From Rhodoferax sediminis (GTDB lineage: Bacteria; Pseudomonadota; Gammaproteobacteria; Burkholderiales; Burkholderiaceae_C): DNA of 64,000 nt. Positions 778-59,775 of this stretch are shown piece by piece; within the stretch, counting starts at the first letter, position 1, and each line of letters begins with the position of its first letter. The notes beneath the pieces are model-generated. The model saw only the letters and a program-made list of their open reading frames with translations, did no database searches and was not told the DNA's origin. The stretch lies in contig NZ_CP035503.1 of assembly GCF_006970865.1 (NCBI RefSeq), positions 2,989,001 through 3,053,000 on the forward strand, given 5' to 3'. The position numbers and the translations under genes are program-made.

Positions 778-1905
778 ATGCAGCTCGCCTCCCCGGGAAC
801 GCTCGCGGCCCGCCGGATCGACGGCATTGCGCTGCTGCGCCACTACCTGCAGACGCTGGCCTTTTGCCTGGCGATTTCGGCCCTCCAGTATTTCGCCTCG
901 CCCGACAAGCCGTACGAAGTGCCGCTGGTGTATTCGCTGTGCATCGGCTCGGTCACCTGGGCCCTGATCGATCTGGGCCGCCACCTGTTCAACCCCAACC
1001 CCGAGACGGGCTGGCCCCACGGCTGGGGCGGAATCGCGCTGGCAACGCTCGGCGTTCTGGGCGGTTACTTCATCGGCACCTATGCGGCCGACGCCTGGTT
1101 CGGCTGGTCGTCGTGGCAGCAAAGCGTCGCCCAGCAGCGCGTTTCCTGGCTGATCACGCTGGCGGCCGGCGTGGTCATCAGCTACTACTTCTACACCCAG
1201 GGCAAGAGCCGCCACCTGCAAGGCCGGATGCAGCAGGTCCAGCGCCAGGCCACAGAGGCGCGGCTCAAGCTGCTGGAGACCCAGCTCGAGCCGCACATGC
1301 TGTTCAACACGCTGGCGAACCTGCGCGTGCTGATCGGCAGCGACCCGGCCCGGGCGCAGGCCATGCTCGACCACCTGATCGACTACCTGCGCGCCACGCT
1401 GGGGGCCTCGCGCGCGAGCGAGCACGCGCTGCAGACCGAGTTTGAGCGCCTGCGCGACTACCTGGCGCTGATGGCCGTGCGCATGGGCGCGCGCCTGCAG
1501 TACACGCTGGACCTGCCGCCCGAGCTGGCGAGTCACCCGGTGCCCACACTGCTGCTGCAGCCGCTGGTGGAAAACAGCATCCGCCACGGACTGGAGCCCA
1601 AGGTGGAGGGTGGCAGCGTCAGGGTCAGCGCGCGCCGCGAGGGCGACTGGCTGATGCTGGAAGTGACCGACACCGGCGTCGGTATCCAGCCCGGAATGGA
1701 AGGCCTGCCTGCGGCGCCCACGACAGCCGGCGGCTTTGGCGTGGCCCAGGTGCGCGAGCGCTTGGCCACCGCCTACGGCAACCAATGCACTATTGAATTG
1801 ATAGCTCCAAATGAAGGCGGGACAAGGGCTACACTGCGATTTCCTTACAAAAACCCGGCAACAACCCCAGTGCGCACCGATGCGCTACAAAATTCATCGC
1901 CCTGA
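778..1905 (+). CDS. LytS/YehU-type sensor histidine kinase
   Basis: 375 residues. Residues 20-140 hold about four hydrophobic helices (membrane sensor part). Residues 165-240 are the His_kinase (PF06580) region with LEPHMLFNTL and phospho-acceptor His173, a variant of the usual NPHFLFNTL. Residues 255-355 are the HATPase domain with N box LVENSIRH (Asn266), DTGVGI (about 298-303) and GFGVAQVRERL. The expected partner is the LytTR regulator at 2915, but a hydroxylase-like gene lies between them. The 3' end of the ATPase domain (residues about 337-357) is encoded by a copy of the dispersed repeat described at 1789. Signal and targets are unknown. Confidence 0.85.
   Translation: MQLASPGTLAARRIDGIALLRHYLQTLAFCLAISALQYFASPDKPYEVPLVYSLCIGSVTWALIDLGRHLFNPNPETGWPHGWGGIALATLGVLGGYFIGTYAADAWFGWSSWQQSVAQQRVSWLITLAAGVVISYYFYTQGKSRHLQGRMQQVQRQATEARLKLLETQLEPHMLFNTLANLRVLIGSDPARAQAMLDHLIDYLRATLGASRASEHALQTEFERLRDYLALMAVRMGARLQYTLDLPPELASHPVPTLLLQPLVENSIRHGLEPKVEGGSVRVSARREGDWLMLEVTDTGVGIQPGMEGLPAAPTTAGGFGVAQVRERLATAYGNQCTIELIAPNEGGTRATLRFPYKNPATTPVRTDALQNSSP
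1789..1850 (+). repeat. dispersed 42-bp-core repeat, copy A (inside kinase gene)
   Basis: The core is 1789-1830, beginning ACTA, with TAGC at core positions 14-17 and CAAGGGCT at 35-42, followed by a T-rich tail. It lies inside the coding end of the kinase gene and is read in phase 1, so the last part gives Thr-Arg-Ala. The first 17 nt can fold on themselves with two G-T wobbles. Confidence 0.75.
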
Positions 1906-1935
1906 CGATCGAATTTTCATGAAGAATCTGCTGCC

Positions 1936-2895
1936 ATGGCTGTGCTCATCCTGATCCTGAAAATCTCCGTGCTCGTGGTGCTGGCCGCCTCGCTCGCCGA
2001 GGCGCTGGTGCTGTCGTGGCGCCATGCACACCGTGGCGGCGCGGCCTACGACTGGAAGGCGGCCGGCGTCTCGGTGGTCGACTTCCTGGTACGCGAATAC
2101 CCGCTGCGCTGGCTGCTGCCCGCCACCGCCTTCTACCTCGGCGCGATGGACTGGCTCTGGCAGCACCGTCTGTTCACGCTGCCGATGGACGACTGGCGCG
2201 GCTGGACCGCGTGCTTCGTCGGACAGGAGTTCTGCTACTACGGGTACCACCGCGCGGCGCACCGGGTGCGCTGGTTCTGGTGCACGCATTCCATCCACCA
2301 TTCGTCGAACCAGCTCAACCTGTCGGCCGCCTACCGCTTCGGCTGGACCGGCCGGCTCACCGGCACGCTGGCGTTCTTCATGCTGGCGCCGCTGCTGGGC
2401 ATGCCGCCGCGCGTGATCCTGCTGATGCTCACGCTGAATCTGCTGTACCAGTTCTGGATCCACGCCACCTGGATTCCGCGCCTCGGTCCACTGGAATGGG
2501 TGCTGAACACGCCCTCGGCGCACCGCGTGCATCACGCGTCCAACCTCGAGTACCTCGACGGCAACTACGGCGGCGTGCTGATCGTGTTCGACCGCCTGTT
2601 CGGCACCTACATCCGCGAGCGCGCCGAGGTCCCCTGCCGCTACGGGCTGGTCACCCCGGTGGTCGGCCACAACCTGCTGCGCATCGAATTCGCGCCGTGG
2701 ATCGCGCTGTGGCGCGACCTGCGCGCGGCCCGCTCGCTGCGCGCCGTGGGGGGCCATCTGTTCAAGCCGCCGGGCTGGCGTGCTGGAGGGCCGGGCGAGA
2801 CCACCGAGGAACTGCGCGCACGCGCGGCCGTTGCGTCGCCGACCGCAGGCTCCGACCACGCGGTGGGATTGCCGCTGCGCACGCCGATGGCTTGA
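1936..2895 (+). CDS. sterol desaturase/fatty acid hydroxylase superfamily membrane protein
   Basis: 319-residue integral membrane di-iron enzyme family (PF04116). The histidine clusters are visible: HRAAH (105-109), HSIHH (118-122) and HRVHH (196-200), followed by NYGGVLIVFDRLFGTY (about 210-225), which is typical of the family C-terminus. Hydrophobic segments at about 3-25, 55-75 and 140-175 flank the clusters. The usual reaction is O2-dependent hydroxylation or desaturation of a lipid; the substrate here is unknown. It sits 30 nt after the kinase and 19 nt before the response regulator, an unusual position between two partner genes. No clear SD sequence precedes the chosen ATG, but the N-terminal hydrophobic segment fits it. 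Confidence 0.85.
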   Translation: MAVLILILKISVLVVLAASLAEALVLSWRHAHRGGAAYDWKAAGVSVVDFLVREYPLRWLLPATAFYLGAMDWLWQHRLFTLPMDDWRGWTACFVGQEFCYYGYHRAAHRVRWFWCTHSIHHSSNQLNLSAAYRFGWTGRLTGTLAFFMLAPLLGMPPRVILLMLTLNLLYQFWIHATWIPRLGPLEWVLNTPSAHRVHHASNLEYLDGNYGGVLIVFDRLFGTYIRERAEVPCRYGLVTPVVGHNLLRIEFAPWIALWRDLRAARSLRAVGGHLFKPPGWRAGGPGETTEELRARAAVASPTAGSDHAVGLPLRTPMA

Positions 2896-2914: not shown

Positions 2915-3748
2915 ATGCACCCGCTGCCCCCGACCGCCCTGATTGCCGAAGACGAGCCGCTGCTGGCGCAGGCGCTGCAGGCCGAGCTGGCGCGCGCGTG
3001 GCCCGAGCTGCGCGTGCTGGCCAGCGTGGGCGATGGCGCCAGCGCCGTGCAGCAGGCCCTGCAGCTGCGGCCCGACGTGCTGTTTTTCGACGTGCGCATG
3101 CCGGGCCGGAGCGGCCTGGAAGCCGCCGCCGAGCTGGCCGACGAATGGCCGGCGTCCACGCCGTTTCCCGCCCTGGTGTTCGTGACCGCCTACGACCAGT
3201 ACGCGGTGCAGGCCTTCGAGGCGCAGGCGGTCGACTATCTGCTCAAGCCGGTGCAAACCGCGCGCCTGCAAAAAACGGTGTCAAAAGTGCAGCAAGCCCT
3301 TGCCCAGCGTGCACAGTCTGCTACCAATCTGGAAGCAAGCCTGGCCACCACGTTGAGCCAGTTGCGCCACTTGATGGACGCCACCGGCGCGCCGCCCGCC
3401 GCTAGCGCCGGTCCGCTCAAGGTGATCCAGGCCAGCGTGGGCAGTCAGATCCGCCTGGTGCCGATCGACGAGGTGATCTACTTCGAGGCGGCCGACAAAT
3501 ACGTGCGCGTGCTCACATCCGGCCCCGATGGCGGCCACGAGTACCTGATCCGCACCCCGCTCAAGGAGCTGCTGCCGCAACTCGACGCGCACACCTTCTG
3601 GCAGGTGCACCGCGGCACCGTGGTGCGCGCCGATGCCATCGACAGCGTGACGCGCGACGAGGCCGGCAAGCTGCACCTGACGCTGCGCGGGCGCGCCGAC
3701 AAGCTGCCGGTGAGCCGGCTCTATGCCCATTTGTTCAAGGCGATGTAA
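2915..3748 (+). CDS. LytTR-family response regulator
   Basis: 277 residues. N-terminal receiver (about 8-120): acidic pair EDE at 12-14, phospho-acceptor Asp59 in LFFDVRMPG, Thr91 in VTAYDQYA, and Lys111 in YLLKPV. A linker of about 50 residues follows, then a LytTR DNA-binding domain (about 170-277; VIYFEAADKYVRV and FWQVHRGTVV are typical). The frame is open further upstream, but the ATG at 2915 puts the first strand of the receiver right after the start. It is the presumed partner of the LytS-type kinase at 778. The linker overlaps an antisense copy of the dispersed repeat. The next gene starts 2 nt after its stop. Confidence 0.85.
   Translation: MHPLPPTALIAEDEPLLAQALQAELARAWPELRVLASVGDGASAVQQALQLRPDVLFFDVRMPGRSGLEAAAELADEWPASTPFPALVFVTAYDQYAVQAFEAQAVDYLLKPVQTARLQKTVSKVQQALAQRAQSATNLEASLATTLSQLRHLMDATGAPPAASAGPLKVIQASVGSQIRLVPIDEVIYFEAADKYVRVLTSGPDGGHEYLIRTPLKELLPQLDAHTFWQVHRGTVVRADAIDSVTRDEAGKLHLTLRGRADKLPVSRLYAHLFKAM
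3275..3336 (-). repeat. dispersed 42-bp-core repeat, copy B (antisense, inside response regulator)
   Basis: On the minus strand the core runs 3336 to 3295: GCTT, then TAGC at positions 14-17 and exact CAAGGGCT at 35-42. It lies in the linker between the receiver and LytTR domains, where an insertion would be tolerated. Core pairs 5/13 and 6/12 are both C-G here. Confidence 0.7.
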
Positions 3749-3750
3749 GC

Positions 3751-6968: not shown

Positions 6969-7005
6969 GTGTAGTGCGCCACACTGTTCTGTACTTATCT
7001 CGTTG
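6969..7005 (+). repeat. IS630 left terminal inverted repeat
   Basis: Starts GTGTAGTGCGCCA and ends near CTTATCTCGTT. Pairs with the right end; the first 13 bases differ from it at one position. Confidence 0.75.
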
Positions 7006-8077
7006 CCCCTGCCAACGCGGCTTTGGCCCGCGTGACCTTTGCCAGGATGTCCTTGGCGCTGGCGGTCCAGATGAAGGGCTTGGGGTGGGCGTTGTGATGC
7101 ACGACGTACAGGTCGATGGCCAACTCCAACTCCGCTACGCTGGTGAAGCTGTCGCGCCGGATGCGGTTCTCGGAGATGTCGCGAAAGAACCGCTCGACCA
7201 TGTTCAGCCAGGATGCGCTGGTCGGCGTGAAGTGCATGACGAACCTTGGGTGCTTGGCCAGCCAGGCCTGAACGTCTGGGTGGGTGTGGGTGCCGTAGTT
7301 GTCCACGATCAGATGCAACTGCAATTGCTTGGGCGTATTGCGCTGGATCAGGCGCAGGAACTTGAGCCACTCTTCGTGGCGGTGCTGCGGTTGGCACATC
7401 GAGATCACCGTGCCGTCCAGCGTGTTCAGCGCAGCGAACAGTGTCGTGGTGCCGTGGCGCTTGTAGTCGTGGGTAACGGTGCCGGCGCGCCCGGCCTTCA
7501 TCGGCAAGCCTGGCTGCGTACGGTTCAACGCCTGGATCTGGCTCTTCTCGTCGCAGCTGAGCACGAGCGCGTGCTCGGGCGGGTTCAAGTACAGACCCAC
7601 CACATCCAGCAGCTTGTCCTCGAAGCGCGGGTCGCGCGAGAGCTTGAAGCCTCGCTGCAGGTGCGGTTTAACGCCGTTGCGCTGCCACACGCGCCGGATG
7701 GTGGTGGCGCTCAAGCCCAGATGTTCGGCGAGCGTGCGCGTGCTCCAGTGCGTGCCCGCCACGGGCTTGGTGTGCAGCGTCACCTGAAGAATGCGCGAGT
7801 GCACTTCGGGGGTAAACGTGGGTGTGCGCCCCGAGCGCGGCGCGTCCTGGCGCAGCGCATCGATCCCGCCGCAGAGGAAACGCTGGCGCCACAGCGCGAC
7901 TTGGCGGCGATCCAGGTCAACCTGTGCCGCGATGTCCTTGTTCTGCCAGCCCTGGGCCGCCAGCAGGATCACGCGCGCGCGTTGTTGGAGTCTGGCTTCG
8001 ATGCGCCGCCGCTTGGACAGCGCGCGCAACTCGCGCTCGGTCGTGACATCAAGCTCAATCGTTTCGGCAACTCGCAT
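6995..8077 (-). CDS. IS630-family transposase (DDE type)
   Basis: 360 residues from the ATG at 8077; the frame stays open to 8272, but that stretch crosses the right end of the element. An N-terminal helix-turn-helix region (about 20-70, with DIAAQVDLDRRQVALWRQRF) binds the ends. A second winged HTH spans about 90-140. The catalytic acidic residues are Asp176 (LSCDEKSQ), Asp259 (HLIVDNYGTH) and Glu295 (WLNMVERFF), the DDE triad of the IS630/Tc1 group. Length is normal and all three are present, so the enzyme should be functional. An SD-like AGGAGG lies about 7 nt upstream of 8077. Confidence 0.95.
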   Translation of the reverse strand: MRVAETIELDVTTERELRALSKRRRIEARLQQRARVILLAAQGWQNKDIAAQVDLDRRQVALWRQRFLCGGIDALRQDAPRSGRTPTFTPEVHSRILQVTLHTKPVAGTHWSTRTLAEHLGLSATTIRRVWQRNGVKPHLQRGFKLSRDPRFEDKLLDVVGLYLNPPEHALVLSCDEKSQIQALNRTQPGLPMKAGRAGTVTHDYKRHGTTTLFAALNTLDGTVISMCQPQHRHEEWLKFLRLIQRNTPKQLQLHLIVDNYGTHTHPDVQAWLAKHPRFVMHFTPTSASWLNMVERFFRDISENRIRRDSFTSVAELELAIDLYVVHHNAHPKPFIWTASAKDILAKVTRAKAALAGATR

Positions 8078-8110
8078 CGGTCCAGCCTCCTGGGCGGTTG
8101 GAGTATGCCG

Positions 8111-8146
8111 GAACGAATAAGTTCTATAACTTTTGGCGCACTGCAC
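8111..8146 (-). repeat. IS630 right terminal inverted repeat
   Basis: Read on the minus strand it starts GTGCAGTGCGCCA and ends near CTTATTCGTT, matching the left end with some mismatches and a 1-nt gap. Confidence 0.75.
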
Positions 8147-8365
8147 TAGCCAGGCCCGAAAGCAGCTCATGGCGCAGGGGCTGAAGCTACCCACCCAGAA
8201 TTGGTCCTGCTCGGCCGTGCGCACCCCGGTTGTCTGAAATCCGGCCCTTTTCGCGATGTTTTCATCGCTCATGTGATCCGGGTCCCGGGTAAATTAAAGC
8301 GATAGTCACATGGCTTAAGCTTTCAATTTTCAAGCAACTACGCAGTAACGGGAGAAGCAATTCAA

Positions 8366-9782: not shown

Positions 9783-9825
9783 CGCTGGCCGCCGTGTGCC
9801 GCTCACACCTCACGCTTTTTCGTTT

Positions 9826-9887
9826 GCTATTACTTATATAGCCACTCTCGCCCACCCCACAAGGGCTAGCGTCATATTTCATTCATA
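9826..9887 (+). repeat. dispersed 42-bp-core repeat, copy C (intergenic)
   Basis: The core is 9826-9867: GCTA, TAGC at 14-17, exact CAAGGGCT at 35-42, then a T-rich tail. The outer five pairs of the 17-nt hairpin are intact (GCTAT/ATAGC). It fills most of the gap between the antitoxin and the restriction-modification gene and ends 9 nt before that start. Confidence 0.8.
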
Positions 9888-9896
9888 AAGCTACTC

Positions 9897-12683
9897 ATGC
9901 CCCTCAGCTGGAACGAAATCAAATCCCGCGCCCTGGCCTTCAGCCGCACCTGGGCCGATGCGGCCAATGAAGACAGCCAGGGCAAGCCGTTCTGGATTGA
10001 TTTTTTCGAGATCTTCGGCATCACCGACAAGCGCGTTGCCACTTTTGAGCTGAACGTCAAAAAGCTCGGCGGCGCGCAGGGCTTCGTCGATCTGTTCTGG
10101 CCGGGCATGCTGCTGGTCGAGCAAAAGTCGCGCGGCAAAAATCTGGATGGCGCGTTCAAGCAGGCACTGGATTACTTCCCCGGCATTGCCGAGCGCGATT
10201 TGCCGCAGATCATCATCGTGTGCGACTTTGCGCGCTTTCGCGTGCACAAGCTGGCCACACAGGAAACCATCGAGTTCGAGCTCAAGGATCTGCACAAGAA
10301 CATCAAGCTGTTCGGCTTTGTAGCAGGCTACAAGGCGCAAACCATCCAGCCGCAAGACCCGGTCAACATCAAGGCGGCCGAGCGCATGGGCCGGCTGCAC
10401 GATGCGCTGAAAAGCTCGGGCTACACCGGCCACCCGCTCGAAGTGCTGCTAGTGCGCTTGCTGTTTTGCCTGTTTGCGGACGACACCGGTATCTTCCAGC
10501 CCGCGCAGGCGTTTCGCACTTTCATTGAAGAACGCACCTCGCCTGATGGATCGGACCTGGGCGCGCGGCTGGCGCAGCTGTTCCAGGCGCTGAACCAGCC
10601 CGAAGTCAATCGCAGCAAGGCACTCGATGAACAAGTAGCCACCTTCCCCTATGTCAACGGCAAGCTGTTTGAAGAACCCCTGCCCATGGCTGACTTCACC
10701 AGTGCCATGCGCGAAGCATTGCTCGACGCCTGCGCGCTCGACTGGTCGGCCATCAGCCCGGCCATCTTCGGCAGTCTGTTCCAGAGCATCATGGACGACA
10801 AGGCGCGGCGCAACCTGGGCGCGCACTACACGTCTGAGGAGAACATCCTCAAGCTCATCAAGCCGCTGTTCCTTGACGAGTTGTGGGCCGAGTTTCGCAA
10901 GGTCAAGAGCAACAAGAACCGGCTGTTCGAGTTTCACAAAAAGCTGCGCCTGCTGACGTTTTTCGATCCCGCCTGCGGCTGCGGAAATTTTCTGGTCATC
11001 AGCTACCGCGAGCTGCGCCTGCTGGAACTGGAAGTGCTGCGCGCCGGCAACAGCGCCGGGCAGCTCAGCGTGGACGTGCACCAACTCATCGGCATCGACG
11101 TCGATCAGTTTTACGGCATTGAAATCGAGGAATTCCCGGCCCAGATTGCGCAGGTAGCCCTATGGCTGATGGATCACCAGATGAACCTGCGCGTGAGCGA
11201 GGAGTTTGGCCTGTACTTTGCGCGCATCCCGCTGCGCACCACGCCGCACATCGTGCATGGCAACGCGCTGCGGCTGGATTGGAACGAAGTGCTGCCGGCA
11301 CAGCGGTGCAGCTTTGTGTTGGGGAATCCACCATTTGTCGGCAAACAACATCAAAGCCCAGAGCAAAAAGTAGACGTAGCCTCAACCTATGCGCTGCTCG
11401 AAGGCGGCGGGGTGCTGGACTTCGTGGCAGCGTGGTACATCAAGGGCGCGAATTACGCGAAAGCTAACTCGAATGTGCGGGTAGGCTTTGTATCAACCAA
11501 TAGCATCGTGCAAGGCGAGCAGGTCGGCGTGTTGTGGGGCTGGATGCTGGCGCAAGGCATGCATATCCAGTTCGCGCACCGCACGTTTCGCTGGAGCAAC
11601 GAAGCCAGTGGCAAAGCTGCAGTGCACTGCGTCATTATTGGTTTCAGCCCCATGCAGCCTGAGCGCCCAACGATTTTCGAGTACGACGATGTGGACGGTG
11701 AACCTCACGCAGCGCTGGCCAACAACATCAACCCGTACCTGGTAGATGCGCCTGATATCGTGCTGCCATCGCGCCGCGACAGCATTTGTCCAGTGCCGCC
11801 CATCGTTTTTGGCTCTATGGCTAACGATGGTGGACACCTGTTAATGGATGACACAGAGAAAACAGCGCTACTGGCGGAGTGTCCTTCGGCCGCGAAATGG
11901 GTGCGCCCATTTCTGGGCGCAGATGAGTTCATCAACAATATTCCACGCTGGTGCCTGTGGCTGAAAGACTGCCCTCCATCGGAGTTGCGCATCATGCCAG
12001 CCGTGCTTATACGCATCAATAAGGTCAAAGCCCACCGCGAAGCTAGCACCCGCGCTGCCACCCACGCGCTAGCAGCGACTCCCGCATTGTTTGGCGAAAT
12101 CCGGCAGCCAACAGGCAGATATCTACTTGTGCCACGTCACTCGTCTGAGCGGCGCGAGTTCATACCCATCGGATTTTTGCCTCCTAACGTGATCGTTGGG
12201 GATGCGAACCTTTGCATCCCCGATGCGGCGCCATATCACTTTGGAATCATGACCTCGCGCATGCACATGGCGTGGGTGAAATACGTTTGCGGCCGGATCA
12301 AAAGCGATTACCGTTACACGAACCAGATCGTCTATAACAATTTTCCCTGGCCAGATTTTTCATTCAATCAGCCTGTAGCCCATACAGGACGTTCGCAAGC
12401 CGCTATCGAAACTGCAGCGCAAGCCGTTCTTGACACCCGCGCCCAGTTCCCCGATTCATCGCTGGCCGACCTGTACGACCCGCTCTCCATGCCGCCCACT
12501 CTGGTCAAAGCCCATCACCAGCTCGATGCCGCCGTGGATGCGGCCTACGCGCTGGGTGGCGGCAAGAAGAACTACAAGAACGACGCCGAGCGTGTGGCGT
12601 ATCTGTTCGAGCTTTACCAGCGCTACACCAGCCTGCTGCCCACTGACAAAGCCAAATCGAAGCGCCGGGCCAGGGCTGCTTGA
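9897..12683 (+). CDS. MmeI-type (type IIL) restriction-modification protein
   Basis: 928 residues, the usual size for single-chain MmeI-like enzymes that both cut DNA and methylate adenine. The nuclease part has Asp65 (FVDLFWPG) and Glu75-x-Lys77 (LLVEQKSRG), a D-x9-ExK site. A helical spacer follows. The methyltransferase has motif I DPACGCGNFL (about 355-364) and motif IV NPPF (about 476-479). The C-terminal 300 residues hold the target-recognition part (about 600-810) and a helical end. The frame is intact with all catalytic residues visible, so it should be active. No SD precedes the ATG; the repeat copy ends just upstream. It works alone, without a separate specificity subunit, and closes the islet. 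Confidence 0.85.
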   Translation: MPLSWNEIKSRALAFSRTWADAANEDSQGKPFWIDFFEIFGITDKRVATFELNVKKLGGAQGFVDLFWPGMLLVEQKSRGKNLDGAFKQALDYFPGIAERDLPQIIIVCDFARFRVHKLATQETIEFELKDLHKNIKLFGFVAGYKAQTIQPQDPVNIKAAERMGRLHDALKSSGYTGHPLEVLLVRLLFCLFADDTGIFQPAQAFRTFIEERTSPDGSDLGARLAQLFQALNQPEVNRSKALDEQVATFPYVNGKLFEEPLPMADFTSAMREALLDACALDWSAISPAIFGSLFQSIMDDKARRNLGAHYTSEENILKLIKPLFLDELWAEFRKVKSNKNRLFEFHKKLRLLTFFDPACGCGNFLVISYRELRLLELEVLRAGNSAGQLSVDVHQLIGIDVDQFYGIEIEEFPAQIAQVALWLMDHQMNLRVSEEFGLYFARIPLRTTPHIVHGNALRLDWNEVLPAQRCSFVLGNPPFVGKQHQSPEQKVDVASTYALLEGGGVLDFVAAWYIKGANYAKANSNVRVGFVSTNSIVQGEQVGVLWGWMLAQGMHIQFAHRTFRWSNEASGKAAVHCVIIGFSPMQPERPTIFEYDDVDGEPHAALANNINPYLVDAPDIVLPSRRDSICPVPPIVFGSMANDGGHLLMDDTEKTALLAECPSAAKWVRPFLGADEFINNIPRWCLWLKDCPPSELRIMPAVLIRINKVKAHREASTRAATHALAATPALFGEIRQPTGRYLLVPRHSSERREFIPIGFLPPNVIVGDANLCIPDAAPYHFGIMTSRMHMAWVKYVCGRIKSDYRYTNQIVYNNFPWPDFSFNQPVAHTGRSQAAIETAAQAVLDTRAQFPDSSLADLYDPLSMPPTLVKAHHQLDAAVDAAYALGGGKKNYKNDAERVAYLFELYQRYTSLLPTDKAKSKRRARAA

Positions 12684-16865: not shown

Positions 16866-17303
16866 ATGAACGAATCACTGCACATCGTCTGTCCGCACTG
16901 CCACACCACGAACCGCGTGCGTGCGGACCAGCTCGGCAGTGCGCCGACCTGCGGGCACTGCAAGAAACCCCTGTTCGACGCGCATCCTGCCGCGCTGGAC
17001 GAGGCGGCGTTTGACAAGCACATCGGCCGCAATCAGATCCCGGTACTGGTGGATTTCTGGGCGCCCTGGTGCGGCCCGTGCCGCACGATGGCGCCGTGGT
17101 TCGAGCAGGCCGCCGCGCAACTGGAGCCGCGGGTGCGTCTGGCCAAGGTCGATACCGAGGCGGTACCCAACCTCGCCGCGCGTTTCAACATTCGCAGCAT
17201 CCCGACGCTGGCGCTGTTCGTGGACGGGCGTGAGGTGGCGCGCCAGGCCGGCGCCATGGGCGCGGCCGACATCGTGCGCTGGGTGCAGTCGCACGTGCGC
17301 TAA
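16866..17303 (+). CDS. trxC: thioredoxin 2 (zinc-ribbon thioredoxin)
   Basis: 145 residues. The N-terminal zinc ribbon has CPHC (Cys9, Cys12) and CGHC (Cys29, Cys32), which distinguishes TrxC from TrxA. The thioredoxin domain carries FWAPWCGPC with redox cysteines 69 and 72, and SIPTLALF with the cis-Pro. It reduces protein disulfides in the cytoplasm and is often induced by oxidative stress. An alternative ATG 9 nt upstream (16857) is in frame; 16866 gives the usual short N-terminus. The next gene converges, with a repeat copy filling the gap. Confidence 0.92.
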   Translation: MNESLHIVCPHCHTTNRVRADQLGSAPTCGHCKKPLFDAHPAALDEAAFDKHIGRNQIPVLVDFWAPWCGPCRTMAPWFEQAAAQLEPRVRLAKVDTEAVPNLAARFNIRSIPTLALFVDGREVARQAGAMGAADIVRWVQSHVR

Positions 17304-17305
17304 TT

Positions 17306-17367
17306 GCTACCGATTTCGTAGCTGCTCGCGCAGAACCCTCAAGGGCTCGCGGCTGTTTTCATCAAAT
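17306..17367 (+). repeat. dispersed 42-bp-core repeat, copy D (fills a convergent gap)
   Basis: The core is 17306-17347: GCTA, TAGC at 14-17, CAAGGGCT at 35-42, T-rich tail. It occupies nearly the whole 66-nt gap between the trxC stop and the stop of the convergent aspartoacylase-like gene. Confidence 0.8.
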
Positions 17368-17369
17368 AT

Positions 17370-18323
17370 CTAGGTCGCCAGCGGCCGCGACAGGTACACG
17401 CCCTCGCGCCCCACGATCGCCGTGCGCGCGGGCATCAGGATGGTGCAGTCGTCGCACGGCGCGCGGATTTCATCCGGGCCATCGGTGGCGATGAGTTCGT
17501 CCTTGGCGAACACCTCGAAGCCCACGCAGGGCCGGCTGAATTTGAATTCGGGCGTCTTGATCACATAGGTGCGCAGCAGCTCGAAGCGCCTGGGCGCGGC
17601 GGCGGACGCGGCATCCGCGTCGCGCTCCATCAGGCCAAAGTGGGCCAGGAAGCCGCGCGTCACGGCGATTGCCGTATCGCTGCTCGCCTGGCGGAAATGC
17701 TGGCCGCATTCGACCACCATGGCGGCGCCCGTGCCATCAACGCCGGCGAAGTGGCCGTACTGGATCAGCGGCGTGCCCGAACCCAGGCCATCGGGCATGA
17801 CCAGGTGCACCTGCGGGCGCCCGATCGCCAGCGCGACCTCGGCGTTGCGCGCGAAGCCGGGATAGACCCAGAAGGGTTCGACGTCCTGGCTGGTGGAGTG
17901 GATGTCGAGCAGGTGATCGGCTGCGGCGAGCACCGGGCGCAGCTCGCGCGCGCGCCGCAGCTCGGGGCTGTCCTCGGCGCCGTCCAGCCACTCGGGCGAC
18001 CAGATGCGGTTCAGGTTGTGCACCAGCAGGCGGCTCTCGAACGGCTGCGCCGGATCAAAGGTTTCGTACGCCGCCACGTTGGCAAAGCTGACCGTGAGCG
18101 TGCCGATCAGCGGGCGCACGCCGGCATCCAGCAGCTGCGTGGCCGCCACCATGCCGCAGAACTCGTTGCCGTGGGTGAGCGCGTTGACCAGCACGTGCGG
18201 CCCGGGCTTGCCGGATTCGAAGCGGTGCACATAGTCGATGCCCACGTTGCCGCGCCGATAGGCGGACAGGTCGCGCGGGAGGACTTCGAAGGTGGTGGAC
18301 GCTGGCGGAGAGGTTGGGTTCAT
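17370..18323 (-). CDS. succinylglutamate desuccinylase/aspartoacylase family protein
   Basis: 317 residues, zinc carboxypeptidase-like M14 fold. Zinc ligands are visible as His51 and Glu54 (ALTHGNEFCG) and His142 (LLDIHSTSQD); NLNRIW (about 103-108) supplies the substrate-binding Asn-Arg. The family hydrolyses N-acyl amino acids or related amides. No arginine-succinyltransferase operon is nearby, so AstE is unlikely and the substrate is open. The start at 18323 lies only 4 nt from repeat copy E, which therefore makes up its 5' untranslated region; no SD is visible. Confidence 0.75.
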   Translation of the reverse strand: MNPTSPPASTTFEVLPRDLSAYRRGNVGIDYVHRFESGKPGPHVLVNALTHGNEFCGMVAATQLLDAGVRPLIGTLTVSFANVAAYETFDPAQPFESRLLVHNLNRIWSPEWLDGAEDSPELRRARELRPVLAAADHLLDIHSTSQDVEPFWVYPGFARNAEVALAIGRPQVHLVMPDGLGSGTPLIQYGHFAGVDGTGAAMVVECGQHFRQASSDTAIAVTRGFLAHFGLMERDADAASAAAPRRFELLRTYVIKTPEFKFSRPCVGFEVFAKDELIATDGPDEIRAPCDDCTILMPARTAIVGREGVYLSRPLAT

Positions 18324-18327
18324 GTTT

Positions 18328-18389
18328 GCTACTTTTTTTATAGCTACTTGTGTAATACCCACAAGGGCTTGAGTCACATTCTACTCATA
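18328..18389 (+). repeat. dispersed 42-bp-core repeat, copy E (upstream of an acylase start)
   Basis: The core is 18328-18369: GCTA, TAGC at 14-17, exact CAAGGGCT at 35-42, T-containing tail. It begins 4 nt from the ATG of the minus-strand gene at 18323 and fills most of the gap to the SGNH hydrolase gene. Confidence 0.8.
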
Positions 18390-18421
18390 CCTTGCCAGAC
18401 CCGTCCGCACGGGATGAATGC

Positions 18422-32770: not shown

Positions 32771-32832
32771 AACTACAATTTTGATAGCTAACTGCGCAGA
32801 AGGGGCATGGGCCACAGGCACTTTTTACCGTT
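32771..32832 (+). repeat. dispersed 42-bp-core repeat, copy F (intergenic)
   Basis: The core is 32771-32812: ACTA, TAGC at 14-17 and CATGGGCC at 35-42 (two changes from CAAGGGCT), then CACTTTTT. It fills the gap between the serine-hydrolase start and the stop of the acyl-CoA synthetase gene, whose last codon lies in the repeat tail. Confidence 0.7.
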
Positions 32833-34567: not shown

Positions 34568-34716
34568 ACAAAAGTTTCCTCTCATCATGGGGTGGTCAAG
34601 CGCCACACCCGAGAATAGATTACCCCGCTTTCGGCAAAGGCCCTCCAGTGTCGCACCGGAGACCCCGGCGCAGACCGGGTCGCCATCCCTGTGCCGGCGT
34701 AGATAATCAAGCCGCC

Positions 34717-35805
34717 ATGACACGCCCTACCGCCAAAGCCCCCACTGCTGCCACCCATGCGATCACTTCCACCCCGACACCGCCCAGCCGCCGCGCACCG
34801 GGCAGCCTGACCCAGGTCGGTGGCATCGAGGTCGGCCATTTCACCGACGCGCGCCGCCCGACTGGCTGCACCGTGATCATCGCGCGCCATGGCGCGGTCG
34901 GCGGCGTTGATGTGCGCGGCGCCGCGCCCGGCACCCGCGAGACCGATTTGCTGCAACCCGGCAACCTGGTGGAGCAGGTGCATGCCATCGTGCTCGCCGG
35001 TGGCAGCGCCTGGGGTCTGGATGCCGCCGGTGGTGCGATGCGCTGGCTGGAAGAACAGGGCATCGGCTTCGACGTGGGCGTCGGCCTGGTCCCCATCGTG
35101 CCGGCCGCCGTGCTGTTCGACCTGCCGGTGGGCGATGCCCGCATCCGGCCCGATGCCGAAGCCGGCTACCGCGCCTGCGCGGCTGCCTCGCGCCAACGCC
35201 CGGCCGAGGGCAATGTGGGCGCGGGTGCCGGCGCAGTGGTCGGCAAGCTGTTCGGCCTGCACCGCGCCATGAAGGGCGGCATCGGAACGGCGTCGGTCAC
35301 GTTGCAGGGCGTCACGGTGGGCGCCCTCATCGCCTGCAACGCGCTGGGCGATGTGGTCGACCCCGACAGCGGCCGCGTGCTGGCCGGTGCGCGCACGGCG
35401 AACGGGCGCGCCCTGTTAGATAGCCGCCGCGCCATCCTGCGCGGCGAGCCGCTAAGCCCCCTGCTCGCAGGCACCAACACGACCATCGGCGTGATCGCCA
35501 CGGACGCCGTGATCAGCAAGACCCAGGCGCAAAAACTGGCCCAGCTGGCGCATGACGGCCTGGCGCGCAGCATCAACCCGGTGCATACCCTGTCCGACGG
35601 CGACACGCTGTTTGCGCTGGGCACCGGCCAGTCCGGCAAAACGCTGGGCATGATGCTGCTGGGCACCATGGCGGCCGAGGCCACGGCCAGGGCGGTGGTG
35701 CGGGCCGTGCAGGCGGCGCGCGGCATTAGTGTGGGCGCGCTGCACCTGCCGGCCGCGGCCGAGCTGGCGGCGCCGCGCGCGCGCGCGGCAGGCCCATCGC
35801 GTTGA
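34717..35805 (+). CDS. P1 family peptidase (DmpA/S58, self-processing aminopeptidase-like)
   Basis: 362 residues, Ntn-hydrolase-like DmpA fold. Family stretches are VGGIEVGHFTD near the N-terminus, VLAGGSAWGLDAAGGAMRWLEE (about 92-113), GNVGAGAGAVVGK (about 167-179) and GGIGTAS. NTTIGVIATDAVISK (about 254-268) contains the probable Thr nucleophile exposed by self-cleavage. Members are aminopeptidases or amidases. The start at 34717 is 9 nt after GATAAT, suggesting a short leader; the first 25 residues are Pro/Thr-rich and probably disordered. It ends 11 nt before the TAXI gene. Confidence 0.82.
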   Translation: MTRPTAKAPTAATHAITSTPTPPSRRAPGSLTQVGGIEVGHFTDARRPTGCTVIIARHGAVGGVDVRGAAPGTRETDLLQPGNLVEQVHAIVLAGGSAWGLDAAGGAMRWLEEQGIGFDVGVGLVPIVPAAVLFDLPVGDARIRPDAEAGYRACAAASRQRPAEGNVGAGAGAVVGKLFGLHRAMKGGIGTASVTLQGVTVGALIACNALGDVVDPDSGRVLAGARTANGRALLDSRRAILRGEPLSPLLAGTNTTIGVIATDAVISKTQAQKLAQLAHDGLARSINPVHTLSDGDTLFALGTGQSGKTLGMMLLGTMAAEATARAVVRAVQAARGISVGALHLPAAAELAAPRARAAGPSR

Positions 35806-39426: not shown

Positions 39427-41088
<1,662 letters not shown>

Positions 41089-41310: not shown

Positions 41311-43029
41311 ATGAACTTTGAAGAATTAAACCTGGCTCCGGCCATCGTCAAGGCTGTGCACGAGCTTGGCTACGAGACCCCCACGGCCATTCAGGCACAA
41401 GCCATTCCGGTGGTGCTGGACGGGCACGACATGCTCGGCGGCGCCCAGACCGGCACCGGCAAGACGGCAGCCTTCGTGCTGCCCATGCTGCAGCGGCTGA
41501 GCGCGGCCGAGGCGCCCAAGAACAAGTTCGGCGGCAAGGGCATCCGCGCCCTGGTGCTGACGCCCACGCGGGAGCTGGCCGCGCAGGTTGAGGAATCGGT
41601 CCGGACCTATGGCAAATATCTGGAGTTGACCTCGACCGTAGTGTTTGGCGGCGTCGGCATGAACCCCCAGATCACGAAGGTCAAAAAGGGCGTCGACATC
41701 CTGGTCGCCACCCCGGGCCGTCTGCTGGATTTGCTGCAGCAAGGCGTGCTGGACCTCGGTCAGGTGCAGATCCTGGTGCTCGACGAGGCCGACCGCATGC
41801 TGGACATGGGCTTCATCCACGACGTCAAGAAAGTGCTGGCCGTGGTGCCCAAGGACAAGCAAAGCCTGCTGTTCTCCGCCACCTTCAGCGACGAGATCCG
41901 CGACCTGGCCGACACCCTGCTGAAGAATCCGCAGAGCATCCAGGTCACGCCGCGCAACACCACGGTGCAGCGCATCACCCAGGTGATTCACCCGGTCGGC
42001 CGCGGCAAGAAAAAGGCGCTGCTGGCGCACATCATCCAGGAACAGAACTGGAGCCAGGTACTGGTCTTCACGCGCACCAAGTTCGGCGCCAACAACGTGG
42101 CCGAGTTTCTGACCAAGAACGGCATCCAGGCGATGGCCCTGCACGGCAACAAGAGCCAGGCGGCACGCACGCAGGCGCTGAGCGGCTTCAAGAGCGGCGA
42201 CATTCGCGCGCTGGTGGCCACCGACATTGCTGCGCGCGGGATCGACATCGACGATCTGCCGCACGTGGTGAACTATGAAATCCCGAACGTCAGCGAAGAC
42301 TACGTGCACCGCATCGGCCGCACCGGTCGCGCAGGAGCCGACGGCGCCGCCGTGAACCTGGTGTGCCTGGACGAAGAAGGCTTCATGCAGGACATCGAAC
42401 GCTTCACCAAGCAGCAAATCGCTGTCAAGATCATCGAGGGCTTCATGCCGGAACCCGGCGAAAAAGCCGAGCCGATTGCCATGGGCCGCCAGACCATCTG
42501 GGGCGGCGCGGGCAAACCGCCGAGCCGCGACGTCATGCAGGCCGCGGCCAAGGCCGCGCGCAGCGAGATGATGCAGCGCGTGCGCGACAACAAGGCGACC
42601 CAGGGCGACCGCGGCGGCAACGGCAATGGCCGTGGCGGCCCGCGCGGCGGCCAGCGCAGCAGCGCGCCGCACAGTGACCCGGCAGCGCGCGGGCCGCGTC
42701 CTGCCCAGGGCCGCGGACGCTCGGGGGGTGGCAACGGCGGCGGTTACCGTGACGGCGCGGGCGCGGGCCAACCCGATCACAATCGGACGGCCAGCGGCGC
42801 CAACCTGAATCCGGCGCCGCGTGCGCCCCAGGGTGGCCAGCCGGACCCGATGCGCACCAGCGTGGACAGCATGGCGGAACAACGCGGCCGCAGGAGTGGC
42901 GGCGGTTTCGGTGGCGGCAATCGCAATGGAGGCTCTTATGGCGGATCAGGCGGCGGCACGGGTGGCTTTGGTGGCCGGGGCAACGGGTCTCGTGGGCCGG
43001 GAGGTTCTCGCGGCTCTTTTGGCCGATAA
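41311..43029 (+). CDS. rhlE: DEAD-box RNA helicase, RhlE type
   Basis: 572 residues. The Q motif is [28 protein letters not shown] at the N-terminus, read in two pieces. Then follow [11 protein letters not shown] (motif I, about 50-60), [19 protein letters not shown] (motif II, about 154-162), SATFS, and [10 protein letters not shown] (motif VI). After residue 400 a long Gly/Arg/Asn-rich tail (RGG-like repeats) provides loose RNA binding. It unwinds short RNA duplexes in ribosome assembly or RNA decay. The 3' end of the Gly-rich tail overlaps the next gene by 92 nt and supplies that gene's SD sequence. Confidence 0.92.
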
Positions 43030-43600
43030 GGCGTATTCAAAGGTTCACTGCGTGGGCCGCCGCGCCCCGCCTGTCACCCACCGCAAGCTGACTTGCCACA
43101 CGGTCGACCTCAAAGCCCTGCCGGCCCTGCCTCCTGTGGACGATGTCTACATCGCGCTGGGCACGACCATCAAGGTGGCGGGCAGCCAAGCCGCCTTCCG
43201 GGCCGTGGATTACGAGGCAGTTGTGGCTGTAGCCCAGGCTGCGCGTGCGTCTGGCGCTACTAAATTAGGAGTCGTCAGCGCCATGGGCGCGAACCCTCGA
43301 TCGGCTGTGTTCTACAACCGCGTCAAGGGTGAGATGCAAGAGGCTGTTTGCAAACTGGGCTTTGACTCCGTCGTGATCGTGCAGCCGTCTTTCATTGCGG
43401 GCGATCGCGGCAGCCTGCAGCAGCCAGGCCGCAGCGCCGAAGGATGGGCCCTGTCCGCCATGCGCTGGCTTGATCCACTGGTTCCCGCCAATTACAAGAC
43501 CATTCGAGCGGAGCAGGTCGCCCGCGCTTTGATCGGGGCCGTCAAGGCCGGGCAGCCGGGCGTGCAACGGATTCTCTCGGGCCGCATGCAGGCGCCTTGA
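42938..43600 (+). CDS. NAD(P)-binding oxidoreductase-like protein (HTATIP2/YwnB type)
   Basis: 220 residues from the ATG at 42938, which has a perfect GGAGG 5 nt upstream; an in-frame ATG at 42926 is possible. The Rossmann motif is [16 protein letters not shown] (about 12-27). [21 protein letters not shown] (read as two pieces, about 72-93) and [24 protein letters not shown] (with the Tyr-x3-Lys pair) are features of the atypical SDR group that includes HTATIP2. The redox substrate is unknown. The first 30 codons overlap the rhlE tail in another frame. An antisense repeat copy lies inside. Confidence 0.8.
43211..43272 (-). repeat. dispersed 42-bp-core repeat, copy G (antisense, degenerate)
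   Basis: On the minus strand the core runs 43272 to 43231: ACTC, TAGC exactly at 14-17, CCTGGGCT at 35-42 (two changes). Pairs 5/13, 6/12, 7/11 and 8/10 of the hairpin are all Watson-Crick. The tail is less T-rich. The encoded protein stretch is itself family-like, so chance similarity cannot be excluded. Confidence 0.45.
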
Positions 43601-58217: not shown

Positions 58218-59123
58218 GTGAAACATTTGCTCGCCGTCGATTGGGGCACCTCATCGCTGCGCGGCGCGCTGCTGGACAGGCACGGCAAGGTGTTGCAGGA
58301 GCGAACGTTTGCACGCGGCATCCTGACCGTGCCACCGGGTGAATTTGCTACAGTATTTGAAGCATGCTTCGAACCGTGGACAAGGGCTGCAGGCACTTTT
58401 TGCCTGATATCCGGAATGGCCGGCAGCCGCCAGGGCTGGGTCGAGGCGCCCTACTGCGCCTGCCCTGCGGGGCTCGACGACATCGCACGCCAACTGGTCT
58501 GGGTGACGCCGGGGTGCATCGCCATTGTGCCGGGCCTGCGCTGCGAACAGGACAGCATCCCTGACGTCATGCGCGGCGAAGAAACCCAGGTGTTCGGTGC
58601 GCTGCAACTGCTGGACCTGCGGGACGCCGTGCTGGTGCTGCCGGGCACGCACAGCAAGTGGGTGCGCGTGGCCTCCAACCGCATGGAGCACTTCACCACC
58701 TTCATGACCGGCGAGTTCTATGCGCTGCTGCGCCAGCATTCCATCCTCGCGCGCACCCTGCCCGGCGATGACGGCGACCTCGACGTGGACGCGTTCAACC
58801 AGGGCGTCGCGCTCGCCTTGCATAGCGCCAGCCTGCTGCAAACCGCCTTCAGTGCGCGCACGCTGTCACTGTTTGAACGCCTGCCCGCAGCGGCGCTGCC
58901 CAGCTACCTGTCGGGGCTGGTGATTGGCGAAGAATTGCGCACGCAGCCGCTGGAGGCCGGCGCGCAGGTGGTCCTCGTGGGCGCCGACACACTGACCCAG
59001 CGTTACGAGCTGGCGCTGGCGCAGCGCCGCGTGCCGGTGCGGCGCGTCGGCCAGGACGCCGCCTGGCGCGGGCTGTGGGCCATTGCCAGCGCCCTGTCGT
59101 CCTCTCCCACAGGAATACCATGA
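58218..59123 (+). CDS. dgoK: 2-dehydro-3-deoxygalactonokinase
   Basis: 301 residues from a GTG start at 58218. N-terminal LLAVDWGTSSLRGALLDR (about 4-21) is the phosphate-binding part of the DgoK family; LISGMAGSRQGWVEAPY (about 63-79), MRGEETQVFGAL and VLPGTHSKWV (about 140-149) are further family hallmarks. It phosphorylates 2-keto-3-deoxygalactonate (or -gluconate) at C6 with ATP. It overlaps the aldolase gene by ATGA. The stretch encoding about residues 44-64 is a repeat copy read in frame, between two conserved motifs. Confidence 0.9.
   Translation: MKHLLAVDWGTSSLRGALLDRHGKVLQERTFARGILTVPPGEFATVFEACFEPWTRAAGTFCLISGMAGSRQGWVEAPYCACPAGLDDIARQLVWVTPGCIAIVPGLRCEQDSIPDVMRGEETQVFGALQLLDLRDAVLVLPGTHSKWVRVASNRMEHFTTFMTGEFYALLRQHSILARTLPGDDGDLDVDAFNQGVALALHSASLLQTAFSARTLSLFERLPAAALPSYLSGLVIGEELRTQPLEAGAQVVLVGADTLTQRYELALAQRRVPVRRVGQDAAWRGLWAIASALSSSPTGIP
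58347..58408 (+). repeat. dispersed 42-bp-core repeat, copy H (inside dgoK)
   Basis: The core is 58347-58388: GCTA, AAGC (one change) at 14-17, exact CAAGGGCT at 35-42, then GGCACTTTTTGCC. It is read in phase 1 in dgoK, so its end gives Thr-Arg-Ala as in copy A. Hairpin pairs 5/13 (C-G) and 6/12 (A-T) are kept. Confidence 0.7.
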
Positions 59124-59758
59124 ACGCCCACGATAAATTCACGCACGCGCTGCGCGCCCTTCCCCTGGTCGGCATCCTGCGCGGCCTGTCGCCGCACGAA
59201 GCCCTGCCGATCGGCGAAGCACTCACGGGTGTGGGCTGGACGCTGATCGAGGTTCCCCTCAATTCCCCGCAGCCACTGCAAAGCATCGAAGCCATGGCCA
59301 GCGCCTTTCCGAACGCCCTGGTCGGCGCGGGCACCGTGCTCAGCCCGGGCGATGTGCGCAACGTTCATGCGGCCGGCGGCCGGCTGGTGGTAGCCCCCAA
59401 TTTCAATGCCGCAGTGATCCAGGAGGCGGTGCGCCTTGGCATGGTCTGCCTGCCCGGCGTGATGACCGCCACCGAAGCCTTTGCCGCGCTGGACGCGGGC
59501 GCCACCGGGCTCAAGCTGTTTCCGTGCGAGATGATCACGCCCGCGGTGGTCAAAGCGCTGCGCGCCGTGCTCCGCACGGACACCCTGCTGCTGCCGGTCG
59601 GCGGCATCACGCTGGACAATATGGGCGCCTACCGGGCCGCCGGGGCCAGCGGCTTCGGCATCGGCTCGGCGCTGTACCAGCCCGGCATGGCGGCCCTCGC
59701 GGTCCGGGAGAATGCTATGAACTTCATAGCTGCCTACGAGGGTACCATCAGGGCATGA
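59120..59758 (+). CDS. dgoA: 2-dehydro-3-deoxy-6-phosphogalactonate aldolase
   Basis: 212 residues, class I KDPG/KDPGal aldolase barrel. LVGILRGLSPHEA (about 15-27) with the Arg-Gly of the KDPGal type, Glu in IEVPLNSPQP (about 43-52), GAGTVL (about 70-75), the Schiff-base Lys in GLKLFPCEM (about 129-137), and LPVGGITLDNM. It splits the phosphorylated keto-deoxy acid into pyruvate and glyceraldehyde-3-phosphate. The ATG at 59120 overlaps dgoK and has AGGAA 5 nt upstream. The final residues (about 199-212) are encoded by a repeat copy. Confidence 0.9.
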   Translation: MNAHDKFTHALRALPLVGILRGLSPHEALPIGEALTGVGWTLIEVPLNSPQPLQSIEAMASAFPNALVGAGTVLSPGDVRNVHAAGGRLVVAPNFNAAVIQEAVRLGMVCLPGVMTATEAFAALDAGATGLKLFPCEMITPAVVKALRAVLRTDTLLLPVGGITLDNMGAYRAAGASGFGIGSALYQPGMAALAVRENAMNFIAAYEGTIRA

Positions 59759-59775
59759 GCACTATTTCTTCACAA
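59714..59775 (+). repeat. dispersed 42-bp-core repeat, copy I (dgoA end and SDR start)
   Basis: The core is 59714-59755: GCTATGAACTTCATAGC is a perfect 8-bp palindrome around one base; TCAGGGCA at 35-42 (three changes). It is read in phase 1 at the dgoA end. The last core base is the A of the ATG of the next gene, and the T-rich tail forms that gene's first codons. Confidence 0.65.

Follow-up and report, generated by a model that had tools for sequence, protein, structure and literature searches.

A dispersed sequence motif of about 66 bp as a probable DNA uptake sequence of the Comamonadaceae

The 64-kb window analyzed here (the whole stretch of DNA under study, from Rhodoferax sediminis) carries copies of a motif family that is probably a new and unusually long DNA uptake sequence of natural transformation in the Comamonadaceae. 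Under this reading, each copy would be a double-stranded DNA recognition site of approximately 66 bp. A DNA receptor on the cell surface, most probably a minor type IV pilin, would favor fragments bearing the motif, which would be imported and then recombine at homologous loci. Better-matching alleles would displace poorer ones, a molecular drive through which point substitutions would build up the motif both within and between genes. We infer that the transformation machinery is the recognizer, which pilin would serve it, and that the spread is by drive; the reading is drawn from the gain of the motif in place, its absence from a 307-kb stretch, its dialects, and its patchy presence, all of which match DUS and USS spread by molecular drive.

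A preliminary description of this DNA had listed nine copies, all of which are present, ungapped and at the sites given, except that position 32771 should read 32772; the core CAAGGGCT is exact in six of the nine, as it had claimed. Its 42-bp core with a vague T-rich tail had to be redrawn as a conserved block of approximately 66–68 bp (columns about −3 to 66). This block consists of a 17-bp dyad (GCTAY-N7-RTAGC), a central GYGCA, the core CAAGGGCT, and two A/T tracts approximately one helical turn apart; A/T tracts lie at columns 8–10, 51–54 (either TTTT or AAAA), and 61–64. The information content of the motif is 50 bits, far above the need for marking ~500 places in 4.4 Mb. A search of the window for the pattern GCTA-N9-TAGC-N17-CAAGGGCT with up to three mismatches returned 11 matches, compared to a mean of 0.41 in shuffled sequence (0 of 100 shuffles reached 11). 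The matches include eight of the nine listed copies; the ninth, with its core at 43231–43272 (−), needs more than three mismatches. When scored by an independent PWM (71 columns, trained only on copies outside the window), the nine copies reached 38.7–61.6 bits, and a tenth, previously unlisted copy was detected at 12377–12418 (−) with 48.6 bits. The two leftover matches are a weak one at 34326 (−; 17–19 bits) and one below 8 bits at 39681 (+).

The copies lie both in genes and in gaps, and several are conserved in place in relatives. The copy at 1786–1853 (+; 57.3 bits) is in a histidine-kinase gene (ORF 778–1905), at the C-terminal end of the HATPase domain, and is found at the same place in the relatives G002 (55.2 bits), G004 (50.5 bits), G001 (45.0 bits), and, weakly, G006 (17.7 bits). 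The copy at 3272–3339 (−; 48.6 bits; core 3295–3336) is found in G002, G004, and G006; G001 lacks the motif but has an identical 68-bp spacing. Directly upstream of a methyltransferase-like gene (ORF 9897–12683) is the copy at 9823–9890 (+; 61.1 bits), and inside the same ORF, on the opposite strand, is the tenth copy (12354–12421, −; 52.5 bits once window copies are included in the PWM); the flanks of these two copies were not found in the compared stretches of five relatives. The copy at 17303–17370 (+; 63.9 bits) occupies the gap between two convergent genes and is shared with G002 and G004 but missing in G001 (157-bp gap) and G006 (33-bp gap). The copy at 18325–18392 (+; 64.5 bits) overlaps the start of ORF 17370–18377 (−) and is retained in G001 (47.1 bits), G005 (34.4 bits), and G006 (55.9 bits) despite diverging flanks. 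At the 3′ end of an acyl-CoA ligase gene (32831–34723, −) is the copy at 32769–32836 (+; 59.3 bits), also present in G002, G004, and G005, and within ORF 42821–43600 (+), encoding an NAD-binding protein, is the copy at 43208–43275 (−; 41.8 bits), also present in G002 (34.9 bits). The last two are at 58344–58411 (+; 51.7 bits), in the 2-keto-3-deoxygalactonokinase gene (ORF 58218–59123), and at 59711–59778 (+; 48.3 bits), where the KDPG aldolase gene (ORF 59075–59758) ends, a position shared with G002. A doubtful match inside the acyl-CoA ligase gene (34303–34370, −; 19.1 bits, or 16.7 bits without window copies in the PWM) is probably not a working copy, its score being far under the main peak.

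The family extends genome-wide, as had been proposed: in a 464-kb sample (the window and 20 further 20-kb stretches), the whole-family PWM at ≥16 bits found 61 copies, compared to none in a Markov-1 control and none in the reversed sequence. Pattern matches on the two strands numbered 263 + 266 with up to three mismatches (44 + 52 in the reversed control) and 158 + 154 with up to two (2 + 5 in the reversed control). We estimate a genome-wide total of 430–530 copies, and the density is approximately 11.5 copies per 100 kb (≥30 bits, empty stretch excluded), or about one per 8–9 kb. By a gene rule that misses some genes, 26 of 62 copies are fully inside predicted genes, 6 partly, and 30 outside; 13 of the in-gene copies are on the same strand as the gene and 13 on the opposite strand. 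Copies occur in ligA, dnaG, and dnaX. Many intergenic copies are close to gene ends, and some copies form overlapping inverted pairs. Sampling of stretches from around the whole chromosome (~1/5 of the genome) showed copies on both strands with no ori/ter pattern by eye, which speaks against a replication-strand bias and terminus exclusion. One 307-kb stretch (3.146–3.453 Mb), picked after its emptiness was noticed, has 0 copies compared to 35.4 expected and looks like acquired DNA; for a 20-kb sample of it, sister species give only weaker, scattered matches. A tRNA search in four stretches (L179–L181 and L195) gave none. Not all accessory DNA is free of the motif, since the copies at 9823 and 12354 are in a stretch whose flanks were not found in relatives. 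Spacing over the 464 kb is uneven (CV 1.47), mainly because the sample includes the empty stretch.

How the motif arises is best seen at ligA, where 109 of 110 aligned ortholog loci show no net change in length across the motif site. After removal of four duplicates, 39 orthologs score ≥22 bits, 6 score 0–22 bits, and 61 score below 0, and the motif is at one and the same position in all 39 carriers. Third-position A/T content of carriers is 0.593 in the motif versus 0.201 elsewhere in ligA; the corresponding values in 48 non-carriers are 0.204 at the motif site and 0.170. Third-position identity among carriers rises only moderately in the motif (0.625 versus 0.552), with 8 of 123 gene windows equally high. 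Because carriers, intermediates, and non-carriers align at ligA with a single exception without net indel, the motif was built in place: it arises by point substitution, largely synonymous in ligA. The gapped ligA matches found in G015 and G016 were set aside, as the gaps could not be tied to the motif. Pfam match lengths reveal no 22-residue insertion in dgoK, glutathione synthetase, the Na/H antiporter, or the AMP-binding C-terminal domain; for example, residues 8–289 of the dgoK product align to positions 1–281 of PF05035, which leaves no room for such an insertion. Among 70 sampled copies, nearest-neighbor identity over 71 columns has a maximum of 0.77 and a median of 0.61.

The motif functions at the level of DNA rather than RNA, since its arms do not covary, TTTT and AAAA interchange, and in-gene copies are strand-balanced. 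At columns 5/13, the 70 copies have C-A (24), T-A (23), C-G (14), T-G (8), and C-T (1), so that no compensatory change was found in this palindrome stem, the two columns being independent; columns 51–54 read TTTT in 27 copies and AAAA in 7. Some dialects differ by symmetric changes in the second palindrome, which a protein dyad would also explain. Rfam matches were absent from the window at the gathering threshold and from L006, L008, L016, and L046 at E ≤ 1.

The remark in the preliminary description that similar sequences are scattered through the Comamonadaceae is borne out: the motif is present in 78 of 299 genomes of the family, in at least 36 genera and at least five dialects (cores). 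A. delafieldii has 336 pattern matches compared to 14 in the control. Across 47 species of its genus, CTAGCGCT and CAAGCGCT are nearly exclusive, whereby four species have 110–176 CTAGCGCT and 19–25 CAAGCGCT, 23 others have 60–268 CAAGCGCT and ≤8 CTAGCGCT, and one is mixed (31 and 57, respectively). Further cores were found in G026 and g139, and ACAAGCGCT is the core in many Acidovorax-type genomes. Carriage varies inside genera (in g173, for example, 202 and 247 versus 0 and 0; g188, g198, g15, and g216 likewise include both carriers and non-carriers), and some close relatives show no excess, such as Polaromonas sp. CF318 (9 matches versus 23 in the control).

The genome encodes ComEC and 13 pilin-like genes above the cut-off. 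Its minor pilin at 1584–2042 (−) of L246 matches PF16732 (ComP_DUS) with 53 bits (cut-off 27.3), which makes it a candidate receptor for the motif; PF16732 is also matched by ordinary minor pilins, and a PDB sequence search with this ComP-like pilin ranked major pilins first and listed no ComP. ComEC was matched in 58 of the 60 genomes covered, this one among them, motif carriers and non-carriers alike, and thus has no discriminating power. A 2014 report describes selective transformation in two members of the same family (PMC4212676). In Verminephrobacter eiseniae, transformation depends on the pilus, and inhibition curves obtained with salmon DNA give evidence of selective uptake; Acidovorax temperans, in data mentioned there as "not shown", accepted DNA of its own species only, and A. 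delafieldii DNA failed to transform it. This evidence of specificity is indirect, and the A. temperans result might be explained by sequence divergence alone. The accessible text of the report names no signal sequence (PMC4212676). In the open-access literature, no paper was found on an uptake sequence of Comamonadaceae or Polaromonas, and no title or abstract opening among the papers listed describes the motif.

The main alternative, which we consider unlikely, is that the copies are sites of a nucleoid or chromosome-organizing protein that wraps ~six helical turns of DNA and are kept by direct selection. The dyad with an A/T center, the fixed spacing, features every ~10–11 bp, and DNA-level conservation at orthologous places would suit such a protein; however, copies on both strands all round the chromosome in the sampled stretches follow no ori/ter pattern by eye, the 307-kb stretch does without them, some close relatives such as Polaromonas sp. 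CF318 show no excess, and a core switch at more than 100 sites in a few species is hard to explain without drive. Another DNA-level drive or signal, either a recombination hot spot or a defense system reading self, is very unlikely: the self-marking pattern and dialects would suit any self/non-self reader, but selective transformation published in the family supplies a direct one, and we know of no recombination or defense reader of 66-bp sites.

We regard it as slightly more improbable again that the copies are decayed repeats of the MITE or REP type, once mobilized by a RAYT or another transposase. Their interspersion, partial palindromes, hundreds of copies, and overlapping inverted pairs resemble such repeats, but the ligA site, without net indel in 109 of 110 orthologs, with its mostly synonymous build-up, the closest sampled pair being just 77% identical, and the window loci compared, which show no clean empty site, all speak against it. 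The suggestion in the preliminary description of selection or mobilization as a unit divides: the fixed length, unlike that of transposon ends, agrees with selection or drive, while mobilization disagrees with the lack of net indels and the low identity. The test for empty sites in orthologous gaps that it proposed gave no clean case: at 17303, the only intergenic site found empty, the gap measures 33 or 157 bp in relatives versus 68 bp here, which is no clean 66-bp difference. The least probable reading is that the copies act as structured RNAs or as regulatory elements, such as terminators, attenuators, or small RNAs, as two short palindromes and the many intergenic copies by gene ends might suggest; the independent stem columns, interchangeable T and A tracts, strand symmetry in genes, and the negative Rfam searches of the window and four loci argue otherwise.

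The uptake-sequence reading would offer a concrete candidate for the missing signal of selective transformation in Comamonadaceae, for which one competition assay suffices as a test. If it is true, the family would become a new group for studying how uptake specificity arises, changes dialect, and disappears; motif absence would flag acquired DNA, the motif would predict which Comamonadaceae species exchange genes, and a partly palindromic 66-bp site would constrain models of how the pilus tip grips DNA. To our knowledge, uptake sequences are known only from Pasteurellaceae and Neisseriaceae, and no DUS or USS is as long as ~66 bp. We lean, with some reserve, toward the fuller claim that uptake sequences arose independently a third time in the Comamonadaceae, where a composite 66-bp signal of dyad, core, and phased A/T tracts, the longest known, would be read by a minor-pilin complex and form a species barrier to transformation.

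Among known systems, the USS is ~30 bp long, and the ACAAGCGCT core of Acidovorax-type genomes presumably resembles the Apl-type USS core. The Pasteurellaceae USS combines a core and two A/T tracts with DNA-shape effects, many copies within and between genes, scarcity in newly acquired DNA, and an explanation by molecular drive (PMC7811141). The motif likewise has a core and two A/T tracts, many copies in genes and gaps, and scarcity in an acquired-looking stretch; it differs by its length of ~66 bp, an extra 17-bp dyad, a lower density (about one per 8–9 kb, below that of Haemophilus or Neisseria), and a different bacterial class. The DUS is a sequence of 10–12 bp that in Neisseria is enriched in genome-maintenance genes. 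Studies of Neisseriaceae describe DUS dialects as barriers between related species (PMC3630211) and atypical DUS distribution as a means to find acquired elements (PMC7371117). The motif resembles the DUS in having dialects, and the pilin found here matches ComP_DUS, the Pfam family named after the DUS receptor, but no sequence relation between motif and DUS was seen. Like REP/BIME and MITE, the motif is interspersed, partly palindromic, and present in hundreds of copies; unlike these elements, which are inserted and copied, it arises in place without net indels.

The preliminary description reported nine short repeats without gaps, and we confirmed all nine at their places in the window and found a tenth copy at 12377–12418(−). 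The genome of Rhodoferax sediminis is one contig of 4,387,497 bp, and its nearest named relative by ligA (95%) is Polaromonas sp. C04 (L096), a member of a genus included in the Comamonadaceae. Across this genome, the 42-bp pattern gave 158 + 154 matches with at most two mismatches, compared to 2 + 5 for the same pattern read backwards (reversed control); with at most three mismatches, the counts were 263 + 266 and 44 + 52. A PWM scan of 464 kb revealed 61 copies of at least 16 bits, and Markov-1 and reversed controls of the same scan gave none. The scores were nearly bimodal, since 53 of the 68 places with at least 8 bits reached at least 28 bits. The 62 copies of at least 30 bits in 537 kb outside a motif-free stretch, taken with the pattern counts, suggest a genome total of approximately 430–530 copies. 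The earlier observation of a repeat family is confirmed and extended.

Alignment of 58 copies delimited the conserved block sharply, at roughly columns −3 to 66, beyond which information drops to background; this corrects the previous description of a 42-bp core with a T-rich tail. The block contains GCTAY (columns 1–5), an A/T centre (8–10), RTAGC (13–17), GYGCA (23–27), the core CAAGGGCT (35–42), a weaker rCAGGC after the core, and two A/T tracts (51–54 and 61–64). Information sums to 50.2 bits over the motif (62 copies), with 1.2 bits at columns −3 to 0, 20.6 at 1–17, 7.4 at 18–34, 10.8 at 35–48, and 10.3 at 49–67. Among 70 copies, the first tract reads TTTT (27), ATTT (12), AAAA (7), or AAAT (5), and overlapping copies with a common dyad occur as inverted pairs, for example, 2116(−)/2141(+) at locus L035. 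The motif appears to act as DNA and not as RNA. An RNA stem was considered and rejected, as columns 5 and 13, its would-be partners, show C-A as often as T-A (C-A 24, T-A 23, C-G 14, T-G 8, C-T 1; n = 70). Twenty-six copies lay wholly within predicted genes (13 along the gene and 13 opposite), which is an undercount because the simple codon-composition rule used for gene prediction, by which 0.74 of the sequence was called coding, overlooks some genes, such as the ORF at 42821–43600, which contains copy 43208 and matches a Pfam NAD-binding protein. A single codon phase took 8 of the 13 same-strand copies, and one phase took 11 of the 13 opposite-strand copies; we infer that TAG within the motif would act as a stop in one frame.

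We compared the window copies with orthologous places in five congeners. In G002 and G004, the flanks were exactly 68 bp apart wherever both could be placed. Copy 3272 is missing from G001, where the 68-bp spacing is unchanged, and the intergenic copy 17303 is missing from G001 (gap 157 bp) and G006 (gap 33 bp); none of the window loci compared showed a clean empty site. Around copy 18325, the flanks have diverged and the motif columns are kept in G001, G005, and G006. In the fetched stretches of the five congeners, neither flank of copy 9823 and a single flank of copy 12354 were found. Pfam profile matches run across copies without 22 extra residues in dgoK, glutathione synthetase, a Na/H antiporter, and an AMP-binding C-terminal domain. 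The DUF3418 helicase-like protein has 633 residues vs 580 in the profile, and because of these 53 additional residues an insertion in its gene is possible.

The strongest insertion test was the ligA copy (L043, 18161–18228). The site was readable in all 110 ortholog loci (30 + 80), and 109 of them had no net indel, which speaks against the earlier suggestion that the repeat is mobilised as a unit. With four duplicates removed, 39 loci scored at least 22 bits, 6 scored 0 to 22 bits, and 61 scored below 0 bits. The Ala344 codon is GCT in 39/39 carriers vs 3/48 in a narrower set of non-carriers; Leu347 is TTG or TTA in 34/39 carriers and CTG in 34/48 non-carriers; and residue 348 is ATA or GTA in 38/39 carriers and mostly GTG in non-carriers. 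Third-position A/T in carriers was 0.593 within the motif vs 0.201 in the rest of the gene, and in non-carriers 0.204 vs 0.170 (Mann-Whitney p = 1.4e-15, which is only indicative because the sequences share ancestry). Third-position identity among carriers was moderately higher in the motif (0.625 vs 0.552), a level equalled or exceeded by 8 of 123 ligA windows. The ligA matches of G015 and G016 (L075, L077, L080) break near query residues 472–477, with extra DNA between.

A pattern search of 60 genomes (our own, 6 congeners, 29 others of the family, and 24 of other families) revealed a clear excess over the reversed control in all six congeners and 12 of the 29; a thirteenth family genome, G012, had 10 matches vs 2. 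The 24 genomes of other families had at most five matches each, and the highest count among 195 genomes from other families of the order, these 24 included, was six. Counting by hand as carriers the genomes that had at least 13 matches and exceeded their control threefold or more, we obtained 78 of 299 family genomes (our own included), spread over 36 of 126 genera, in agreement with the earlier statement that similar sequences are scattered through Comamonadaceae; the remaining 221 had at most nine matches each. Counts also vary within genera (202 and 247 vs 0 and 0 in g173; 243 and 168 vs 3 in g188; 163 and 198 vs 9 in g198). Acidovorax delafieldii had 336 matches (control 14), Polaromonas C04 338 (26), AER18D-145 343 (19), YR568 (L115) 62 (11), and CF318 (L114) 9, below its control of 23. 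CF318 and YR568, set against the two Polaromonas with 338–343, would provide a natural series in a search for the putative receptor. Counts were also under their own control in Curvibacter, two Caenimonas, Rhodoferax lacus, two Ramlibacter, Limnohabitans, and two Variovorax genomes. The exact 42-bp pattern (Polaromonas type) was present in 19 viral contigs (L216–L234), which could be prophage or host DNA.

The dialects have the dyad in common, a feature that the search patterns demanded with mismatches allowed, whereas the core differs: CAAGGGCT in the genome of the window, CAAGCGCT in many members of the A. delafieldii genus as well as G009 and G010, CTAGCGCT in A. delafieldii itself, CAACGGCT in G026, and CGACGGCT in genus g139. 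In the A. delafieldii genus, sites were counted in 47 species. Four of them have 110–176 CTAGCGCT and 19–25 CAAGCGCT sites, and 42 have at most 8 CTAGCGCT and 0 to 268 CAAGCGCT sites (at least 60 in 23 of the 42), several being nearly without both cores. One species, G249, is mixed (31 CTAGCGCT, 57 CAAGCGCT) and is possibly in transition between dialects.

The motif-free stretch spans 3,146,001–3,453,000 (L180–L195), at least 307 kb with bounds set after its emptiness was seen, and has 0 copies of at least 18 bits, where 35.4 of at least 30 bits were expected. When a 20-kb sample (3,293,001–3,313,000) was compared with five congeners and G008, the 40 candidates scored per genome included scattered pieces only, the longest at 66–70% identity, and no long match in synteny; the window matches G002 and G004 in long blocks at 90–96%. 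In two sampled stretches, pieces matched plasmid sequences (71–87% in the best matches); these are catabolic-type genes, transport genes, and an IS5 transposase. No tRNA was found in the four stretches scanned (L179–L181 and L195). The region looks like acquired catabolic DNA. That acquired DNA lacks the motif is not a simple rule, since two window copies sit in DNA whose flanks were not found in the relatives: one lies within and another upstream of the gene at 9897–12683(+), though this region seems accessory. That gene encodes a 928-aa methyltransferase-like protein and has a lower GC3, with relatives at other loci in G004 and G005. The window also carries an IS630-family transposase at 6995–8272(−) (264.7 bits, cut-off 100), with related copies elsewhere in G002 at about 80% identity.

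Judged from these comparisons, the motif most likely represents an unusually long uptake sequence, a signal by which competent bacteria prefer their own DNA. Uptake biased to motif-bearing DNA, followed by recombination, would drive its accumulation, a molecular drive of the kind described in PMC7811141. Such a process fits a 50-bit motif that arises in place by substitution while proteins stay in frame, a newcomer region and some sister species without the motif, and a core that differs between other sister species. It is also possible that the copies are nucleoid-protein sites maintained by direct selection at some 500 places; however, such selection explains the dialect switches and the sister species without sites less well than biased uptake does.

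The genome of the window has ComEC and 13 pilin-like genes above cut-off. A minor-pilin cluster at L246, adjoining a large PilY1-like ORF, encodes a 152-residue minor pilin (1584–2042, −) that matches ComP_DUS (53 bits, cut-off 27.3) and a GspH/FimT-like pilin (1015–1620, −). Both are candidate DNA receptors; the ComP_DUS match makes a pilin a candidate only, because this family takes in ordinary minor pilins too.

Selective transformation has been described in the same family, on evidence that is indirect and partly given as 'not shown', with no signal sequence named in the available part of the report (PMC4212676). According to that part, Verminephrobacter eiseniae has type IV pilus-dependent transformation, and there is evidence that its uptake is selective; in Acidovorax temperans, only DNA from the same species gave transformation, and DNA from A. 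facilis, A. defluvii, or A. delafieldii did not (PMC4212676). As far as our searches show, an uptake sequence of the kind proposed here would be new for Comamonadaceae.
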